Shown here in pieces: positions 2,587 to 27,502 of a stretch of DNA of 48,871 nucleotides (positions are counted from its first letter, which is position 1; every line of letters starts with the position of its first letter). Under the pieces are notes generated by a model that worked only from the letters and a program-made list of their open reading frames with translations, did no database searches and had not been told where the DNA came from. The position numbers and the translations under genes are program-made. This DNA is from a virus, in the IMG/VR virus record IMGVR_UViG_3300023174_000247, positions 1 to 48,871 of that record; one strand, 5' to 3'.

Positions 2587-3622
2587 AGCCAAGAAGATTG
2601 TTGCCCAACTCAATAAGAAGTTCGGTGCGGGTGTTGTTGTGGTCGCTAGTGATATCCGTTCCGATATTATGCCTCGTTTTACCTCTGGCTCTACTACATT
2701 GGATTACGTCCTTGGAGGAGGATTTCCAGGAAATCAGTGGAACGAATTAATTGGAGAACCATCACACGGTAAGACTGCGGTTGCACTAAAAACAATCGCT
2801 GCAAACCAAGCAAAAGATCCAGAGTTCACAACTGTTTGGGTTGCTGCAGAGCAGTGGGTTCCTGAGTATGCCGCAATGTGCGGTGTAGATTCAGATCGTG
2901 TGATCGTAATTGAAACCACAGTTATGGAAGAGGCTTATCAAGCCGTCATTCAATTTGCGGAGTCTCAATCAGTTGATGCAATCGTATTAGATTCATTACC
3001 TGCACTGTCTCCTGCTCCAGAGATGGAGAAGGATATGAATGAGATGACCGTTGGTCGTGGAGCCTTGCTTACCAATAAGTTTTTCCGTGTTGTAGGTGCT
3101 GCGATGAAGAGAAGCCTTCTTGAGAATGAGCGCCCTATTCTGGGATTGATCATTAATCAGTACCGTATGAAGATCGGCGTTATGCACGGTGATCCTCGCA
3201 CTACTCCTGGTGGTCAAGGTAAGGACTACGCCTTCTTTACTCGTTGCGAAATCAAACGTGATGAGTGGATTGAGATTGGCCCAAGTGGAAACAAGAACAG
3301 AATTGGTCAACGCATCAAGGTTCGTGTACTAAAGAATAAAACAGCACCACCACAACGTGTGGCGTACTTTGACTTTTACTTTGCTGATGGTGGAGACTGT
3401 TCCCCTGGTGAATATGACTTTGCTAAGGAGATTGCATCTCTTGCAGTTGTCAAAGGAATCATCGATCGTAAAGGTGGATGGTATTACTTTGGAGAACGCA
3501 AATGGCAAGGCATCGAACCAGTTATTGAAAGCCTTCGTGCTGAGATAGATTTAAAGGAAGAGATTCAGAAGTTAGTGTTTTCTACTTCTGATTTACCAAT
3601 GGCAGGAGAGGCTGATGATTAA
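2576..3622 (+). CDS. recA: RecA-like recombinase
   Basis: A 348-residue ATP-dependent strand-exchange protein. The Walker A motif is GEPSHGKT (residues 60-67), the Walker B strand is AIVLDSLPAL, and a loop-2-like PGGQGKDYAFF segment follows. A RecA-type C-terminal wing is present. Length is close to bacterial RecA (about 350). The ATG at 2576 overlaps the preceding gene by 11 bases, and the TAA overlaps the next ATG. Phage homologues load onto single-stranded DNA for recombination-dependent replication and repair. Neighbouring nucleases (2137, 3847, 4491, 6929) make a coherent recombination block. Confidence 0.9.
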   Translation: MNDEAKKIVAQLNKKFGAGVVVVASDIRSDIMPRFTSGSTTLDYVLGGGFPGNQWNELIGEPSHGKTAVALKTIAANQAKDPEFTTVWVAAEQWVPEYAAMCGVDSDRVIVIETTVMEEAYQAVIQFAESQSVDAIVLDSLPALSPAPEMEKDMNEMTVGRGALLTNKFFRVVGAAMKRSLLENERPILGLIINQYRMKIGVMHGDPRTTPGGQGKDYAFFTRCEIKRDEWIEIGPSGNKNRIGQRIKVRVLKNKTAPPQRVAYFDFYFADGGDCSPGEYDFAKEIASLAVVKGIIDRKGGWYYFGERKWQGIEPVIESLRAEIDLKEEIQKLVFSTSDLPMAGEADD

Positions 3623-3857: not shown

Positions 3858-4164
3858 AGGTCAGAAACAGTCACAGAAGCATGAGAAGAGACTCGCTAAA
3901 AAAGTTGGCGGCTCTACTAATGCAAGATCTGGGGCATTCTGGTCAAGAAAGGGCGATGTGAGATCAAGCGACCTCTTGATTGAACATAAGTGGACTGGTA
4001 AAAAACAGGCCACCGTAAAGTCCGATGTCCTCAAGAAAATTGTAAGAGAGGCAATACTTGATGGGAGAATGCCAGTGCTTGGCATCCATCTTGATGGGGA
4101 GGATTACGTAATCCTTCTTGAAGACGATTTCCTAGAACTGCGAGACAAACTCAAGGATGCCTAA
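3847..4164 (+). CDS. Holliday-junction-resolvase-like PD-(D/E)XK nuclease
   Basis: A 105-residue basic protein with the size and motif order of phage PD-(D/E)XK resolvases. The order is a basic N-terminal helix (QKHEKRLAKKVGG), then RSGAFWSRKGDVRS with the first Asp, then SDLLIEHKWT with the E-x-K pair. A helix and the GIHLDGEDYVILLEDD strands follow. The start is a TTG at 3847 inside the end of the previous gene; no ATG in this frame is better placed. It probably cuts branched recombination intermediates. Two further candidate resolvases (6929 and 15606) lie in the same arm. Confidence 0.6.
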   Translation: MKTEGQKQSQKHEKRLAKKVGGSTNARSGAFWSRKGDVRSSDLLIEHKWTGKKQATVKSDVLKKIVREAILDGRMPVLGIHLDGEDYVILLEDDFLELRDKLKDA

Positions 4165-4167
4165 TCA

Positions 4168-4491
4168 ATGGATGAACCAGAATACGCTTGGAGATATAAA
4201 GCCCGATGCTCAGGACAAGACACTGACATCTTCTACCCTCCTCGTGACAAAGATCAGTATAAAAAGATTGCTACGCATGCCAAGTCATTCTGTCTTGGTG
4301 AGACAGGAAAAAATCCTTGTCCAGTACGTGCAGAGTGTCTGTGGGACGCCGTAAAAAGAGACGAGCCACACGGAATCTGGGGCGGTCTAAGCCATAGAGA
4401 ACGAAATGCTTTAATGAGAAAATGGCAAAAGAAGTTTAAGAAAAAGATAACGCTCAAAGATTTTATTCTCGGTATAGACAAGGACAACTAA
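4168..4491 (+). CDS. whiB: WhiB-like iron-sulfur regulator
   Basis: A 107-residue WhiB-family protein. Cysteines at 14, 42, 51 and 57 would hold a [4Fe-4S] cluster, and the signature GIWGG turn is followed by a basic C-terminal helix (KWQKKFKKK). WhiB proteins act as transcription factors by contacting region 4 of the host primary sigma factor. The cysteine spacing is odd: the usual Cx2C is widened to Cx8C by a short insert (LGETGKNP) before CPVRAEC. The ATG is at 4168 and the stop overlaps the next ATG. It marks an actinobacterial host. Confidence 0.85.
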   Translation: MDEPEYAWRYKARCSGQDTDIFYPPRDKDQYKKIATHAKSFCLGETGKNPCPVRAECLWDAVKRDEPHGIWGGLSHRERNALMRKWQKKFKKKITLKDFILGIDKDN

Positions 4492-5799: not shown

Positions 5800-6686
5800 A
5801 AAAAATATTTATTGTATTAACACTACTGGCAGCATCTGTAGTTCCAGCACATGCGGAAACAGCGCCATCGATTGTAGTTATTGACACAGGTACAAACACA
5901 TCTTTGTTTAAAGACAGCATTGTTTATGAGGTATGTCTATTAACTTCATTTAGATGTCCTAATGGACAGATGACTATGGAGGGAACTGGCGCAGCCAACA
6001 TCCCTGTTACAACTAATAAAGATTTAAACCATGGAACACAAATGGTGTCGTTGGTACTTCGCTTTAATCCAACAGCAAAAATCATACCTATTCGCATTGT
6101 AGGGATAACTCCAAGTAATATTCCAGGGTTATATTCATTAGACGATGTACAAAACGCATTAAATTGGGTTGTTGCTAATCGAGTGAAATACAACATTGCA
6201 GTTGTTAGCCTTGCACAGGGCGCAGTATTTTCAGGATGTAAAGTTCCAACAGGAATGGCTGCAAACATTGCTATTTTAAAAGCGGCAAATGTTCCATTGA
6301 TTACTGCCGTTGGTAACAACAGCAACCGCACAGCAGTATTTTCACCTGCGTGTATTGCAGACACAGTTTCAGTAGGCGCAACCGACAATCCATGGCCAGG
6401 TTCACAACCTATCGAGTACGATCCAAAGGCTGCTCCTTACATTGCTCGTTACAGCAACGGCGCACAAGGACAAACAGATTTCTTTTTAAATGGCCGTTGG
6501 AATGCACTGCAATTAAACGGAACAACTAAATTTACAACAGGTACATCAGGAGCAACTGCAGTATTTGCTGGTTTATGGTTGTTAAATAGAAAAGCAACTT
6601 TTGACGAAACGTTTAATGCGTTGATGGCTACTACCAAAGATGCAAAGAATGAATTCCAGACAGGTAGATATGTATCAGTCGAATAA
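5796..6686 (+). CDS. Secreted subtilisin-like serine protease (S8)
   Basis: A 296-residue S8 protease. A clear signal peptide (MKKIFIVLTLLAASVVPAHA, likely cut after residue 20) is followed at once by the mature catalytic domain. Catalytic residues are Asp30 in VVIDTGT, His79 in NHGTQ and Ser251 in GTSGAT, with the oxyanion Asn174 in VGNN. There is no visible propeptide, and at under 280 mature residues it is compact for the family. The ATG overlaps the previous stop. An exported protease inside a replication operon is unusual: it should act outside the membrane, perhaps on host surface proteins or in superinfection control. The target is unknown. Confidence 0.85.
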   Translation: MKKIFIVLTLLAASVVPAHAETAPSIVVIDTGTNTSLFKDSIVYEVCLLTSFRCPNGQMTMEGTGAANIPVTTNKDLNHGTQMVSLVLRFNPTAKIIPIRIVGITPSNIPGLYSLDDVQNALNWVVANRVKYNIAVVSLAQGAVFSGCKVPTGMAANIAILKAANVPLITAVGNNSNRTAVFSPACIADTVSVGATDNPWPGSQPIEYDPKAAPYIARYSNGAQGQTDFFLNGRWNALQLNGTTKFTTGTSGATAVFAGLWLLNRKATFDETFNALMATTKDAKNEFQTGRYVSVE

Positions 6687-6963
6687 ATCTATTCTGCAAG
6701 AAGCAGAAGAACTAATTCATGGGGATCGTAACTACACCTATGATCATCCACTAGATAACTTCAATCGAATTAAAAAGGGTTGGGAAGTTATATTTGACTG
6801 CGAAATTACAGAAGAACAAGTAGGCATGGCAATGACGTGGGTTAAGATTGCTAGAGAGGCCTACATGCACAAACGAGATAATCTAACGGACGGCGCTGGA
6901 TATCTTGGAACCATTGAGATGGTTATTGATGAAAGAGAGCGCCGTGCCAACCAAACTGATTGA
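6670..6963 (+). CDS. DUF6378-like small phage protein
   Basis: A 97-residue protein starting at the ATG 6670, inside the end of the protease gene. It has the layout of phage DUF6378 proteins: an N-terminal EAEELIHGDRNYTYDHP segment, then NFNRIKKGWEVIF and AMTWVKIAREA, ending with a helix rich in Asp/Glu/Arg. Such proteins are common in phage nucleotide-metabolism regions, but their activity is not established. Confidence 0.7.
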   Translation: MYQSNKSILQEAEELIHGDRNYTYDHPLDNFNRIKKGWEVIFDCEITEEQVGMAMTWVKIAREAYMHKRDNLTDGAGYLGTIEMVIDERERRANQTD

Positions 6964-7531
6964 TGGCAAGTTACCAAGCGGAGTACCAGTTGGGATTGGG
7001 ATTGACCAATCCCTTACTGGGTTTGGTTTATCTGCAGTGCACACCTTAGATCCATCACAACACATCACATGGGTATACAAGTCCCCTTATTTTGGCGTGG
7101 AAAGATTGGCAGATATTCGACAGTGGTTGATAGACCATCTTGAATACCTTGAGGAACAGGGCGCAATAATCCAAGACATCGCTATGGAAGGCACAGTCCT
7201 TGCCAGCCATGCTGCTCTAGTTCTTGGAGAACTTTCGGCAACAGTTCGTCTGACCATCTTTGACTTTTTTGAAGAAGATGACGAACGCAGATTCCCATTA
7301 AAAGTTCCGCCAATGACATTGAAAAAGTATGCTTCTGGTAAAGGAAACTCTAAAAAACAAGAGATGCTCCTACAGATCTACAAGAGGTGGGGAATAGAGT
7401 TTAATGATGACAATGCTGCAGATGCCTACGCTTTAGGAAGGCTTGCTGGAAAAACTGCGATTGATGAAGTTGAGAGGGCAGTAGCCGAACAAATTGAGGA
7501 TCCTAAATACCGAGACCAACCCAGAATTTAG
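6929..7531 (+). CDS. ruvC: RuvC-like Holliday junction resolvase
   Basis: A protein of about 200 residues with an RNase H-like fold. It shows the RuvC acids in order: Asp in GIDQSLTGFG, Glu in AMEGTVLASHAAL, and the C-terminal pair in NDDNAADAYALG. Two starts are possible. The ATG at 6929 has a weak ribosome site, while the GTG at 6944 follows AAAGAGAG at good spacing. It overlaps the preceding gene. It would resolve four-way junctions made by the RecA-like protein before packaging. Confidence 0.8.
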   Translation: MKESAVPTKLIDGKLPSGVPVGIGIDQSLTGFGLSAVHTLDPSQHITWVYKSPYFGVERLADIRQWLIDHLEYLEEQGAIIQDIAMEGTVLASHAALVLGELSATVRLTIFDFFEEDDERRFPLKVPPMTLKKYASGKGNSKKQEMLLQIYKRWGIEFNDDNAADAYALGRLAGKTAIDEVERAVAEQIEDPKYRDQPRI

Positions 7532-19266: not shown

Positions 19267-20529
19267 TCACTCCAAAAAGTCATTGGCAAGTTCCCCTGCC
19301 TTTGACTGGTTGTGACGAAGGCGATGTAGATATCGCTCTGTCGTCTTGATCGACTGGTGACCTAATCTCTCCTTGACCTCATGCACATCTACTCCACCTT
19401 TTAGAAGTTGAGTAGCGTTTGCGTGCCTGAGATCGTGAGTTCTAGGACTCCAACCGATTGCGGACTTGGCTATTGCTTTGTTCCAGATTGTTCTCCATAC
19501 ATCTCGTGGCAGATGACTCGTTTTGTCGATGAATCGCTGTTGCTTCTGATATGGCTTTGCCTTTTGCCTGTGCTTTCGCACCGACTTTCGGCAAGCCTCA
19601 CATCTGCACCGCCCATGTGTATAGGCGTACAGCGTTCCATGCTGGAACTTTTTTCCGTCTAACTCGAATGGTCGAGCAGACTTTGTGCCACGAGAAGGTT
19701 CTAGTTTATGCGGTTCTGCAACCAGAGATCGGGAGAACAGCAGATCATCTTTTGATAGGGCTTTTGCTGAGACATACCCCTGAATGTCTTGTAATAAGGC
19801 TTTGCTTAACATAAGGCTTCGCTTTTTACCTGATTTAGTGGCATCTATGACCAAAAATCGACTCGCATGGCTCTTGCCTAGATCACTCACTCGGCGCTGA
19901 ACGAATAACTCGCCAGTCTTGAAGTTAATGTCTTTGACTCGAATCTCGGTCGCTTCACCGAATCGACAGCCCGATGCGACTAGGAATCTGGCAAGTAACT
20001 TTGCGCCTTGCGTCTGTAAGTTACTTACGATCTGTTTGAAATCTTCTGGCTCTAATACATTCTGGAGATCTTCATGGTGAGACTTGATCTTGATTCCATG
20101 AGTCGGGTTGCTGGTCAACTCGCCAGTCTCCACCAACTTTGAGAAGGCTGAGCCTAGAGAAGCCTTGACTTGCCCTAGCGTGGCAGAGCCAACGCCTTCA
20201 AGTTTGAGATCGTCAAGTAACTTTGAGATCTGACGGGCTGAGATGGTAGTTACTTGGAGATCGCCAATTTTCGGCATGACATATTTTTCCAGTACCGACT
20301 TATAGCCCTTCTTCGTAATAGGCATCAGATTAGCCACAGAGAGCCATTGATCGATATATGAAGCAAGGGTCAATACGGCTCTGGAAGGCTCGTAGAAGCC
20401 CGATTGCTCTGCTTTCGTGGCGTGATACATGGCATCGATCTCGGTGTCCCAAGTGCCAGCAGACAGGCGTTTTCCACCCCTGCGGTAATAGCCTGTAAAC
20501 CGACTATTGCGCTTTACTACATAAGCCAT
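19267..20529 (-). CDS. int: Tyrosine integrase with zinc-finger-like insert
   Basis: A 420-residue phage integrase. It has an N-terminal AP2-like arm-binding region, a SAM-like core-binding domain (about 55-140) and a catalytic domain with Arg189, His365-x-x-Arg368, His391 and Tyr400. Between the catalytic lobes, residues 297-320 hold HGTLYAYTHGRCRCEACRK, a Cys/His motif common in actinobacterial DNA-binding proteins but unusual inside an integrase. All catalytic residues are present, so it should be active. An excisionase-like gene lies upstream at 20893. A terminator separates the integrase from the early operon, and a palindrome lies just upstream of its start. Confidence 0.95.
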   Translation of the reverse strand: MAYVVKRNSRFTGYYRRGGKRLSAGTWDTEIDAMYHATKAEQSGFYEPSRAVLTLASYIDQWLSVANLMPITKKGYKSVLEKYVMPKIGDLQVTTISARQISKLLDDLKLEGVGSATLGQVKASLGSAFSKLVETGELTSNPTHGIKIKSHHEDLQNVLEPEDFKQIVSNLQTQGAKLLARFLVASGCRFGEATEIRVKDINFKTGELFVQRRVSDLGKSHASRFLVIDATKSGKKRSLMLSKALLQDIQGYVSAKALSKDDLLFSRSLVAEPHKLEPSRGTKSARPFELDGKKFQHGTLYAYTHGRCRCEACRKSVRKHRQKAKPYQKQQRFIDKTSHLPRDVWRTIWNKAIAKSAIGWSPRTHDLRHANATQLLKGGVDVHEVKERLGHQSIKTTERYLHRLRHNQSKAGELANDFLE

Positions 20530-20586: not shown

Positions 20587-20619
20587 AAAAAAAAGCCCCA
20601 GATCAATATCGATCTGGGG
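20587..20619 (-). terminator. Strong terminator between early operon and integrase
   Basis: On the minus strand CCCCAGATC pairs with GATCTGGGG (9 bp, 6-base loop), followed by C and eight T. This is a textbook intrinsic terminator. It would stop early-operon transcription before the integrase, so the integrase needs its own promoter or antitermination. Confidence 0.85.
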
Positions 20620-20709: not shown

Positions 20710-20892
20710 TTAATCTCGTTCGGTGTCGATCGAACCGCACTTATGGCAAGTGAAATCCGTATTTGGTACTGGCTCGTAATCGATCGAAGTCGAATCTACT
20801 TCATCTCCAGATTCGTCATAGATGTGAAGCGTGGTATCGATGTACTTACGAGAGAAGTAAGTTGTGTTGTCGCAGTTATTGCACTTAGCCAT
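20710..20892 (-). CDS. Small zinc-ribbon protein
   Basis: A 60-residue protein with CNNC at the N-terminus and CHKC near the C-terminus, giving one four-cysteine zinc site separated by a beta-rich acidic stretch. It is the last gene of the early operon before the terminator. Confidence 0.7.
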   Translation of the reverse strand: MAKCNNCDNTTYFSRKYIDTTLHIYDESGDEVDSTSIDYEPVPNTDFTCHKCGSIDTERD

Positions 20893-22431: not shown

Positions 22432-22664
22432 TTATTTTCTCCTTCTATGTCATCTAGTATTTCCTTATAGCATTCATCGCATAGCAACTGTGTGTCACCA
22501 GCAATTTGTCGATCGTTTGCAAAATAACTTCCGCAACTTTCACATGAACCGTCTTTCGCACCGTCTGTAAACCCACGATCGTAGGCTTTCTGACATGTCT
22601 GACAGAAGTTAGTGTCTTGATCAACTTCATCTACTTCATATCCGCAGTTAGCGCATCTGATCAT
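22428..22664 (-). CDS. Double zinc-ribbon protein
   Basis: A 78-residue protein with four CxxC pairs (CANC, CQTC, CESC, CDEC), enough for two zinc ribbons, and an acidic tail. It overlaps the sigma-like microgene upstream (ATGA). Likely a protein or nucleic-acid adaptor. Confidence 0.75.
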   Translation of the reverse strand: MIRCANCGYEVDEVDQDTNFCQTCQKAYDRGFTDGAKDGSCESCGSYFANDRQIAGDTQLLCDECYKEILDDIEGENK

Positions 22665-22807
22665 TTGTTTATCTCCATATCTTTTAGCATTCGGCTTTCA
22701 ATTTGTCGGACTTTGATTCGGGTTATTCCGTACTTCTTTGCGACATCGGCAAGTGATGCGCCATTAAGACGATCATTAACGATTGCTTTATCTGTTTCTG
22801 TAAACAA
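22661..22807 (-). CDS. 48-residue sigma-70 region 4-like microprotein
   Basis: A TTG start at 22807 has GGAG seven bases upstream; the stop overlaps the next ATG. The sequence NGASLADVAKKYGITRIKV followed by RQIESRMLKDM matches the helix-turn-helix of sigma region 4.2, including the R-x-x-Q-I-E turn. It lacks every other sigma domain. It could bind -35 elements, mimic region 4 to bind RNA polymerase flap, or engage WhiB, which normally contacts region 4. The function is inference; the motif is clear. Confidence 0.7.
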   Translation of the reverse strand: MFTETDKAIVNDRLNGASLADVAKKYGITRIKVRQIESRMLKDMEINK

Positions 22808-22833
22808 TTTAGTACTCCGTTTCTATAAGTTAG

Positions 22834-22970
22834 TTGGTAGAGATCACCAAGAAGTAGAACGATGCTGGCGTTGATTAGGTTTTTCCCTGTCAACGATCTT
22901 GCAAGAATTTGTCCACATCTTTTCAGGCTTGTCCCGCAGAGGCTTGCTAGGTGTTGGTGATCTCTACCAA
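22834..22970. ncRNA. Structured non-coding element A (137 bp)
   Basis: TTGGTAGAGATCACCAA (22834-22850) and its exact reverse complement (22954-22970) form a perfect 17-bp closing stem, centres 120 bp apart. Inside, CGTTGA and TCAACG close a second hairpin. There is no open frame. Each arm is also a TTGGT/ACCAA palindrome, so a pair of operators is the alternative reading. Confidence 0.5.
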
Positions 22971-22977
22971 TTAGATA

Positions 22978-23117
22978 GTTAGGTGAAGGCAGGTACGGCT
23001 CGGTACAACAGAGTAAGGAAGGTAGAAAACCCTGCTGTAAGTCATGACCGCCCTTCACAAGTAGGAGAAGGGGAAATGATTAACCCTGCTTTAGTCTTGT
23101 GTTGACCCTCACCTAAC
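22978..23117. ncRNA. Structured non-coding element C (140 bp)
   Basis: GTTAGGTGA (22978-22986) and TCACCTAAC (23109-23117) form a perfect 9-bp closing stem. Inside are GCAGG/CCTGC and the hairpin CCCTTC (23051-23056)/GAAGGG (23067-23072). It lies 7 bases from element A and has the same layout with an unrelated arm sequence. Confidence 0.45.
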
Positions 23118-23121
23118 AAGT

Positions 23122-23286
23122 TTATTGAGCGAGTATTTTCGCTTTGCAGTTGAAGCAGAACCAGAGAACCGCTTCTCCATGAGAATCTTTAATTGCATGA
23201 CCGTTTCTCTTTAGACCCTGCTGTTCACAAGAGTCGCAAGTATCTAATTGCTCAGGCTTTGCAGGAACGATCTCGGCGTATCCCAT
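23122..23286 (-). CDS. 54-residue zinc-ribbon protein
   Basis: A small frame beginning in a TAATG overlap with the upstream gene. CDSC and CFNC pairs form one zinc ribbon, with LKRNGHAIKDSHGEAVLWF between them. Accepted for its tight coupling and the clear motif. Confidence 0.65.
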   Translation of the reverse strand: MGYAEIVPAKPEQLDTCDSCEQQGLKRNGHAIKDSHGEAVLWFCFNCKAKILAQ

Positions 23287-25540: not shown

Positions 25541-27502
25541 TTAGTTGTTGATCAGTCTGCGACTGACTCCGTACTTCACTATTGATCTGACCATTGAGAT
25601 TAGATCAAGAGGGTTGTTAACGATCGCACCGATTTCACAATAGTGCGAAGTTTCTTGTGTGAGAGGTTGTACTGATTGATTCTCTTCTGGAATAAATGCA
25701 AATGCAGTCAAAACACCAGCACGAGCCATTCTCTTTATTGTCTCGTGATTCATATCTTGATTACCAGACCAGTCACCGTCAGTAATAGCGAAGAAGATTC
25801 GTACAGGCTTCTCAGTCTCTGCAAGAATTTTCGTTGCTCGTTGTAGTGCGCTATCGATAACTGTGCCACCACCAGTACCTGCATCTCGAATGACCGAAGT
25901 TGCTTTATCAGTTGAACGATAAAGAGTTTTCACATTGTCATTGAAAGTTAGGACTGTGCAGTTTGCATTGATTCGATCTAACGCACGCTTGATTGCGTAC
26001 ATCGCACGATAGGCATTCTTTGCTTTGAATCCCGACATAGAGCCAGAGTTGTCTAGCAAGATCACGCATTCGATCTCAGTCGCATCTTCACGCCCTTCAT
26101 TCCAGCGATCGAATACGGTGTCGAGATCATCGCCACGCAAGTAACGATGTGCATCGAGTCTGCCTTGTGGCTCGTACTTATCCCACGCAGGTTCGTAGAG
26201 CGCCTTCAAGCGTTCTAGTTCACGAGAGAATGAGAGTGAGGCATGGTGTGTAGTTGCATCGGGTGTAATCCCTTTTGCATTAGCAAGTTCTGGTTCTTTC
26301 GAGTTATTAGTAGCAAGAGAAGGTAAGCCACTAAGTTGTCGAAGAATGTCGTTGATCTCGTTAGCGACACTTTTGTCATTAAGTAGATCATCTAATAGAT
26401 CGTTAATAACTGTTGCAACGATCTCACCAGCCTTATCACCTGCACCATTACCACCTGACGATTTGTTACTAGATTCATCTTCACTATCTGAATCACCAGC
26501 ATCATCGGCATCACCGAGATCTGAATCATCATCGAGATCTGAATCATCATCGAGATCGTCAAGATCAAGTTCGAGTTCTACAGCAGGGCTAGATTTAAGA
26601 AGTTCCGCAAGATCTGCATCATCTTCTTTATCTAACTTTGCAGAGCGATCACGATCTTTTTCTTGCTTCTTAGGTGGTATTGGTCGTGAAGAAGCAGATG
26701 TCTCTAATCCCTCACTAGGGCGTTCTCCATGACCGAATGGGTCTTTGATCTTGATTAGTACCTTTACACCTTCACCAGAAGTACCGTCACCAGATTGATC
26801 TGGCACTTCTTGCTTTGGTAGTAAGTCATGGAATCGGCGCACGAGTTCTTTCCCTTTTTCAGTATCAGCAGGAAAGACCAGAGTGCGATAGGTATCTACG
26901 ATCTCGCATAGTTCATCGATATCTTCTTGCTTTGAATAGGCGTTACGAGATCTTGCACGAAGTTCCGTAGGTAGATACCTACGACCACGAAGCAACGGAT
27001 AAGAAGATTCGAATGCCTCTGGTTTATCAACGAAGTGAATCAATATCGTGGCTGTAAACCATTCGATAGTTGACGGATACTTAGATGTAAACAGAGTCTC
27101 GATTCGTTGATCTTCTAAACAGTTATATGCCATGAAGAATTTATTCTCACGCACATATTCGAAGATCTCCGAGCCTTCTCGTGGTGTGTACAAGATATGT
27201 GAGATCTCATGAAGATCGAGTCCCTTAACCGATGCAATAGATCGTGCATCGTTTAGATCACCAATCATTCGAGAATTGAATGTCACCTCAGAAGCGCCAG
27301 ACCACGCTGGCGCACCGAGAGGTGAATCTTCAACTTTCACAGTCACCTTGCGAAATGTGAATGCAGAATTAACTCGACCGAAGAATTGAACGAAGCGTTC
27401 TAATCTCTGGCGCTTTAGATCTGCCTCAACTCTGGCTTTCTCAATCTCTTGAAAGGGAACGCCAGTCAGAATGCTGTCCATAGCATCACTTAATTTAGAC
27501 AT
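25541..27502 (-). CDS. VWA-domain protein with HExxH motif (CobT/DUF2201-like)
   Basis: A 653-residue protein. The N-terminal part has LHEISH (His98-Glu99, His102) followed by CLEDQRIE, a zinc-peptidase-like or DUF2201-like pattern that also recalls CobT. A long acidic low-complexity linker (Asp/Ser runs) follows. The C-terminal von Willebrand A domain has an intact MIDAS: Asp484-x-Ser-x-Ser (DNSGS), GGTVID for the Thr, and ITDGDW for the final Asp. It lies 8 bases after the AAA+ gene. AAA+/VWA pairs work as remodelling or metal-chelatase machines (MoxR-VWA, CobS-CobT). The substrate is unknown. Confidence 0.8.
   Translation of the reverse strand: MSKLSDAMDSILTGVPFQEIEKARVEADLKRQRLERFVQFFGRVNSAFTFRKVTVKVEDSPLGAPAWSGASEVTFNSRMIGDLNDARSIASVKGLDLHEISHILYTPREGSEIFEYVRENKFFMAYNCLEDQRIETLFTSKYPSTIEWFTATILIHFVDKPEAFESSYPLLRGRRYLPTELRARSRNAYSKQEDIDELCEIVDTYRTLVFPADTEKGKELVRRFHDLLPKQEVPDQSGDGTSGEGVKVLIKIKDPFGHGERPSEGLETSASSRPIPPKKQEKDRDRSAKLDKEDDADLAELLKSSPAVELELDLDDLDDDSDLDDDSDLGDADDAGDSDSEDESSNKSSGGNGAGDKAGEIVATVINDLLDDLLNDKSVANEINDILRQLSGLPSLATNNSKEPELANAKGITPDATTHHASLSFSRELERLKALYEPAWDKYEPQGRLDAHRYLRGDDLDTVFDRWNEGREDATEIECVILLDNSGSMSGFKAKNAYRAMYAIKRALDRINANCTVLTFNDNVKTLYRSTDKATSVIRDAGTGGGTVIDSALQRATKILAETEKPVRIFFAITDGDWSGNQDMNHETIKRMARAGVLTAFAFIPEENQSVQPLTQETSHYCEIGAIVNNPLDLISMVRSIVKYGVSRRLINN

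Follow-up and report, generated by a model that had tools for sequence, protein, structure and literature searches.

Two structured elements in the early region of the viral genome

The window, as we call the whole stretch of DNA that was analyzed, comprises 48,871 nucleotides (positions 1 to 48,871 of the IMG/VR virus record IMGVR_UViG_3300023174_000247) and encodes a WhiB gene, which suggests an actinobacterial host. A preliminary description of this DNA had drawn attention to two adjacent elements, A and C, that are closed by perfect stems of unrelated sequence. The genes located between 20 and 27 kb lie without exception on the minus strand, and the transcript order is therefore C, then A. 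The following features are present at the locus (coordinates, strand, description):

22661..22807, minus: microgene for a 48-amino-acid Sigma70_r4-like helix-turn-helix (HTH) protein (Pfam PF04545, E 4.5e-6), the next gene downstream of C and A in this lineage
22834..22970, no strand assigned: element A, with a 17-bp closing helix (P1), eight homologues and compensatory changes in P1
22978..23117, minus: element C, a three-way-junction RNA (model match 22971-23122; covariation)
22978..22989, minus: 3' strand of helix P1 of C, CCUUCACCUAAC (sequence and covariation)
22990..22998, minus: 3' strand of the core, CCGUACCUG, comprising the P3a 3' strand with a bulged A (22994) and the junction UG
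23000..23041, minus: P3b hairpin with the pyrimidine-rich loop CUACCUUCCUUAC (23013-23025)
23042..23055, minus: invariant 5' strand of the core, AAGGGCGGUCAUGA, comprising the junction AA, helix P3a and the internal loop UCAUGA
23056..23101, minus: P2 hairpin (CACAAG/CUUGUG) with the pyrimidine-rich stretch CCCCUUCUCCUAC on the 3' side of its loop (23061-23073)
23102..23106, minus: GUCAA, the end of P1 and junction J1/2 (nearly invariant columns)
23106..23117, minus: 5' strand of P1, GUUAGGUGAGGG, ending in the G that is invariant in GUYAA
23122..23286, minus: small gene immediately upstream of C in this lineage; its 54-amino-acid product contains paired-cysteine motifs

The conserved AG of the internal loop stands just before the 3' strand of the core, and the 54-amino-acid protein has no Pfam match. 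Element A is delimited by the arms TTGGTAGAGATCACCAA (22834-22850) and TTGGTGATCTCTACCAA (22954-22970), which form a perfect 17-bp stem and are 120 bp apart from center to center, while the arms of element C, GTTAGGTGA (22978-22986) and TCACCTAAC (23109-23117), form a perfect 9-bp stem and are 131 bp apart. The gap between A and C amounts to seven bases. Both elements were recovered as inverted repeats (I1 and I2), so that the stem positions and lengths, the center distances and the gap given in the preliminary description were all found again in the sequence; the full closing helix of C comprises 12 bp, including one G-U pair (23106-23117 with 22978-22989).

Thermodynamic folding against shuffled sequence agreed with the proposal of an RNA structure at this locus. 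The minus strand of the region 22810-23130 (321 nt) folds with -101.8 kcal/mol, as opposed to -76.2 ± 4.0 kcal/mol for dinucleotide shuffles (z -6.4; 0/100 shuffles); on the same strand, the z values are -4.6 for C alone and -5.8 for A alone. The plus strand of C gave a z of only -1.7. Hence, a good fold of C is seen on the minus strand only, while A folds well on either strand.

A scan of the window for sigma-70 promoters yielded sites that were rarer than in shuffled sequence and was uninformative. A strong terminator-like hairpin, CCCCAGATC...GATCTGGGG followed by a T run, is present on the minus strand at 20596-20619, between a small gene (20710-20892) and the tyrosine integrase gene (19267-20529).

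Relatives of element C

The window encodes a vWA protein (25541-27502) with similarity to CobT_C and a HEISH motif. In Gordonia and Brevibacterium phages, genes for relatives of this protein mostly follow an AAA ATPase gene, an arrangement resembling MoxR-vWA pairs. Relatives of the vWA/CobT-like protein were encoded on nine contigs, each of which (9/9) carries C at the equivalent position, while A is present in four of the more distant contigs and in the close relative L002. Among these relatives of C the letters of P1 are wholly different (GUUAGGUGAGGG, AUCGAGUAGGGG, GUCGAAUGCGAG) and the opposite arm always matches, whereas GUCAA, AAGGRC, UCAYGAY and GUACCUGC are fixed or nearly fixed.

From two fixed core strings we derived the search pattern AAGGRCRNTCAYGAY N16-46 GTACCTGC, which matched 73 stretches in IMG/VR; the reversed pattern, of equal information content, matched none in the same database. 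A pattern with a variant core added 13 stretches, and a pattern with a longer P3 gave four matches, one of which was confirmed by the model. Covariance models were built from 59 aligned sequences (R1) and from 95 sequences (R2). The C element of the window scored 70.7-71.2 bits against these models (E approximately 1e-16; 7.5e-17 at 70.7 bits), a value to be read with the fact that it was part of the training set, although its relatives had been located independently through gene homology. In the model alignment it shows P1, P2, P3a and P3b of the family, with one non-standard pair marked. The models also recovered three loci (L014, L017, L018) at 72-80 bits that were absent from R1 and had been missed by the pattern.

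Drawn from IMG/VR contigs and from Microbacterium and Rhodococcus-family genomes, the C family comprises 110 matches of about 100-150 bases, which represent 102 distinct sequences and 82 clusters. Ten of 198 Microbacterium genomes and 7 of 297 Rhodococcus-family genomes carry the RNA. With stricter filters, it was found in 3 of 396 genomes from the phylum of a Microbacterium genome, one of the three being the query genome itself. None of 249 genomes each from the phylum of a Bacillota genome and that of a Pseudomonadota genome contained it. The GC content of the carrier records ranges from about 35 to 72%, and their gene order is likewise very different. Eleven of the 11 records searched over their whole length carry a single copy, and L174 is the sole record seen with two. 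Nineteen named actinophage records, including D29 and WC1, gave no match when searched whole with the C model; BLAST against 50,697 phage records yielded no relative of C, the consensus queries producing chance matches only, mostly within genes. Carriers of the RNA among annotated, named phages were accordingly not identified. From the bacterial core-pattern matches we discarded L096-L098, L101-L108, and others as chance matches in coding sequence that possess no proper P1; a model search of four genomes with such matches was blank.

The fold of the C family is supported by covariation

The fold shared by the family consists, in order, of P1 (12 pairs), UCAA, the P2 hairpin, AA, P3a, the internal loop, the P3b hairpin, UG, and the returning strand of P1. 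P3a consists of six pairs, with the A of GUACC bulged out, and the internal loop UCAYGAY faces AG. The near-invariant strings of the core are GUYAA, AAGGRC, UCAYGAY, and GUACCUGC.

The pairing is kept throughout the family, with 90% of the cells being standard pairs and 707 double-change cells in comparison with 218 in shuffled data. In a MAFFT alignment of 59 sequences that was not fitted to the structure, the corresponding values were 88.3% and 438 vs. 145. The covariation score of this alignment was 0.654, as opposed to 0.198 after shuffling and to 0.10-0.15 when the pairing partners were slid by 1-3 columns; it reached 0.711 (shuffled: 0.193) for 88 distinct model-aligned rows, and 0.544 (shuffled: 0.162) for 14 members found later, a set for which the search pattern itself already contained some of the change in P3a. 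The pair below the internal loop may serve as an example: it is GC in 27, CG in 14, UA in 9, AU in 6 and UG in 3 of the 59 sequences, without a single failure. Double changes are present in 11 of the 12 pairs of P1, and P3a is 99-100% paired. It is this covariation on which the case for the structure rests, since some members (L026, z -1.3; L053, z -2.2) have modest folding energies when these are taken by themselves.

A coding explanation for the conservation was ruled out: a sense frame is open in 48 of 88 sequences, where 53.4 are expected, and the distances between AAGG and GUACC are spread evenly over all three phases. Collectively, P1 and a three-way junction with the hairpins P2 and P3 are present on the minus strand of the window and are kept in approximately 100 other loci, and we regard it as virtually certain that the C family is a genuine structured RNA. 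The suggestion of a conserved RNA structure, against which an absence of compensatory changes in homologues was to have counted, has thus been borne out, strongly so for C.

Gene neighborhoods of the C family

In the lineage of the window, C resides among genes of the early region. Its surroundings elsewhere differ from group to group. In a freshwater group (L021, L026, L039, L049, L088, L089, L091), C is located at the 3' end of an operon and faces a ribonucleotide reductase gene, with a terminator following directly in most members. In Microbacterium-type prophages (L031, L053, L065, L071, L081, L082, L118) it lies between the genes for a MuF-like minor head protein and the scaffold, and in L024 it is found inside the terminase region. 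C stands between tRNA-Lys and tRNA-Met within an array of 18 tRNAs in L040 (2719-2817), adjoins tRNA-Trp in L071 and a tRNA-like gene in L072, and occurs as two divergent copies (3865-3968 and 4321-4433) interleaved with 24 tRNA genes in L174, a 97-kb viral contig. Head, terminase, portal, capsid, integrase, HNH, WhiB, and sigma-like genes are all represented among the neighbors, but none is constant. An intrinsic terminator is present within about 90 nt downstream of C in 11 of 88 cases, compared with 3 in an upstream control.

Because C has entirely different neighbors in different phages, with operon ends and tRNA arrays among its sites, we consider it likely to be a stand-alone element that acts in trans. 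A context of this kind is expected of a stand-alone RNA gene but not of a leader or an antiterminator. In the lineage of the window, the fixed place in front of the HTH microgene would also be expected of a cis-acting element; the location upstream of a sigma-like microgene noted in the preliminary description applies to the window but not to the family in general, the neighbors of which differ.

Four rival explanations were considered, the last of which concerns packaging. As a riboswitch or attenuator-like leader, C would sense a ligand through its core and regulate the downstream gene. Its near-invariant three-way-junction core does resemble an aptamer, and in the lineage of the window the gene that follows it is always a small HTH gene or another early gene, the start codon of which is about 20-40 nt away when A is absent. 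However, the genes downstream of C are unrelated across the family, several members are followed by a terminator or a convergent gene instead or are embedded in tRNA arrays, P1 does not include the ribosome-binding site in any member inspected, and there is no match to an Rfam riboswitch. A riboswitch would call for a constant class of downstream genes and an expression platform; C was not assigned to the riboswitches, and we judge a cis-acting control element of this kind to be fairly unlikely.

An accessory ("moron") RNA that counters host defense as a decoy for a defense nuclease or sensor is an unlikely identity for C, too. The variable position of C, often beside accessory genes between head genes, its location next to a gene of the Acb2/Tad1 family in L024, and its patchy occurrence in Microbacterium (10/198) would suit such a role, but beyond that one gene we found no link to a defense system, the comparison with CRISPR repeats and RNA antitoxins being that of the Rfam scan; other neighbors are core phage genes, and a defense decoy would usually be expected to have a less conserved core.

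A cis-acting antitermination RNA of the HK022 put or Bacillus EAR type, which binds RNA polymerase to allow read-through of terminators, could explain why C is found within long operons, both early and late, and a conserved core would suit the conserved RNA polymerase. We nevertheless hold it to be quite unlikely, since C also occurs late in tRNA arrays and, in L026, L049 and L089, immediately before a strong operon terminator and the convergent ribonucleotide reductase gene; an antiterminator would be pointless where the strong terminator of the operon comes directly after it. A packaging RNA like the pRNA of phi29, with which C shares a closing helix, a three-way junction and, in many prophage copies, a position next to terminase genes or between those for the minor head protein and the scaffold, is very improbable, because the hairpin loops of C are no more complementary to each other than shuffles are (mean longest run 2.95 vs. 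2.98) and hence would not form a pRNA-like loop-loop ring, C has no Rfam match, and other carriers have it far from packaging genes.

Several genes that adjoin C are of note in their own right. Directly upstream of C in L024, an Acb2/Tad1-hairpin (anti-CBASS type) gene (3197-3454) is placed between two parts of the terminase region, and genes of an accessory type, for CdiA_C-like and Imm1-like proteins, adjoin C in several contigs, hinting that cargo genes are inserted at the site of C. The MuF-like minor head proteins of L071 (4548-6596) and L031 (901-3069) have about 680-720 amino acids, in comparison with about 400 in L081 and L038; the longer genes apparently contain an internal intein/HINT-like insertion, and one neighbor matched Intein_splicing.

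Comparison with known RNAs

A search of the window and 13 further loci with Rfam 15 (4,227 models) yielded nothing at the gathering cut-off except tRNAs elsewhere, and chance matches of about 11 bits only when E values up to 10 were admitted. We found no description of an RNA of the C family in the open-access literature. C therefore represents a new RNA family without an Rfam relative, although structured noncoding RNAs of phages are already known as a broad kind, and a base-pairing sRNA, should C prove to be one, would work by a mechanism of a type already described.

Like C, the abundant stable RNAs of the cluster A mycobacteriophages L5, D29 and StarStuff (PMC5712189) and those encoded by the Rhodococcus phage WC1 (PMC10986025) are noncoding and actinophage-encoded. 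D29 and WC1 carry several of them, and the right-end locus is toxic to M. smegmatis (PMC5712189; PMC10986025); unlike the case for C, these reports are not based on secondary structure. C is not one of these RNAs, since the C model, with filters off, scored at best 12.8 bits (E 0.2) and 14.3 bits (E 0.07) on D29 and WC1.

GOLLD is associated with tRNAs, and both GOLLD and ROOL resemble C in being structured noncoding RNAs of phages or mobile elements. They are self-assembling and hundreds of nucleotides in size (PMC12286853), whereas C has about 100-150 nt and no Rfam match. Y RNAs, the ligands of Ro60/TROVE proteins, are small and have paired ends as does C, and they came into consideration because L046 encodes a TROVE/Ro60-like protein with a vWA domain (5867-7495) two genes upstream of C; this identity was rejected, as a TROVE gene is present in just 3 of 48 carrier records, some of which are fragments. 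A similar topology is found in 5S rRNA, which has about 120 nt, paired ends, a three-way junction and a conserved internal loop in one arm. C shares no sequence with it and has no Rfam match, so that the likeness is one of topology only.

Proposed role of the C RNA

The core of C approaches the invariance of ribozyme and riboswitch cores, and something in the actinobacterial hosts must hold it fixed. The loops of P2 and P3b are rich in C and U, with CCUUUC present in 12 loops of P2 (1.2 expected) and in 11 of P3 (0.6 expected), and CUCCUU is likewise enriched. These loops resemble the 3' end of 16S rRNA, from which a pairing with Shine-Dalgarno sequences can be proposed. Using the 3' tail of actinobacterial 16S rRNA, we found a 6-mer of this tail in the loops of 37 of 73 clusters, as opposed to 10.3 in shuffled loops (maximum 19), a count that is inflated by closely related loops; when the tail itself was shuffled 300 times, the average was 7.7 (maximum 34). 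Half of the clusters have no 6-nt match, and loop pairing of this type is thus not universal. We consider the pairing of the loops with Shine-Dalgarno sequences the leading hypothesis on the mechanism, yet a tentative proposal that is more likely to be wrong than right; a pyrimidine-binding protein would account for the loops equally well.

On balance, we lean toward C being a phage-encoded, stand-alone noncoding RNA. Judging from its gene context, it would likely be made within longer phage transcripts, be trimmed near P1, and act in trans. Its invariant core may dock on a partner that is conserved across actinobacterial hosts, either a protein or an RNP, and the exposed C/U-rich loops might pair with mRNAs of the host or the phage at their Shine-Dalgarno regions, thereby altering translation during infection. 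A more specific version has a small chance of being correct: the core would dock on the ribosome or an RNA-binding protein, and the loops, by mimicking the 16S 3' end, would serve as a Shine-Dalgarno decoy or competitor that redirects translation in infection. If true, C would be a previously undescribed RNA-based device for host takeover. The partner of the core would reveal either a riboregulator or a phage-takeover target that is new, and the C family can be put to the test now, since culturable Microbacterium and Rhodococcus-family strains carry the RNA.

Element A is a separate structured element

The preliminary description had viewed A and C as two elements with the same layout, and this part of it did not hold. 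When the window was searched with the C model and filters off, C alone was found and A gave no match; A is confined to one lineage, being detected solely beside C in the window and in seven contigs (eight homologues), while most relatives of C occur without it. A further pattern match (L141) reads as a coding match and has no C. Hence, A is a structured element in its own right, specific to this lineage, which is not homologous to C and adjoins it by happenstance. It is a real paired structure: within the shallow set of eight homologues, its 17-bp helix shows compensatory changes (GC/AU 4:4 and AU/GC 5:3). These changes also make it very improbable that the TTGGT/ACCAA arms of A serve as a pair of operators and loop the DNA upstream of the microgene, as had been suggested alternatively; in the window, each arm does form an imperfect palindrome, but the matched changes of the arms (GC to AU in 4/8, AU to GC in 3/8) keep them paired with each other, the palindromic symmetry is gone in L002 (TTGGTAGAGATCATCGA), and L003 keeps the microgene with A missing. 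As to the strand of A, the RNAalifold consensus amounts to -37.3 kcal/mol on the minus and -43.3 kcal/mol on the plus strand, and the G-U pairs argue both ways.
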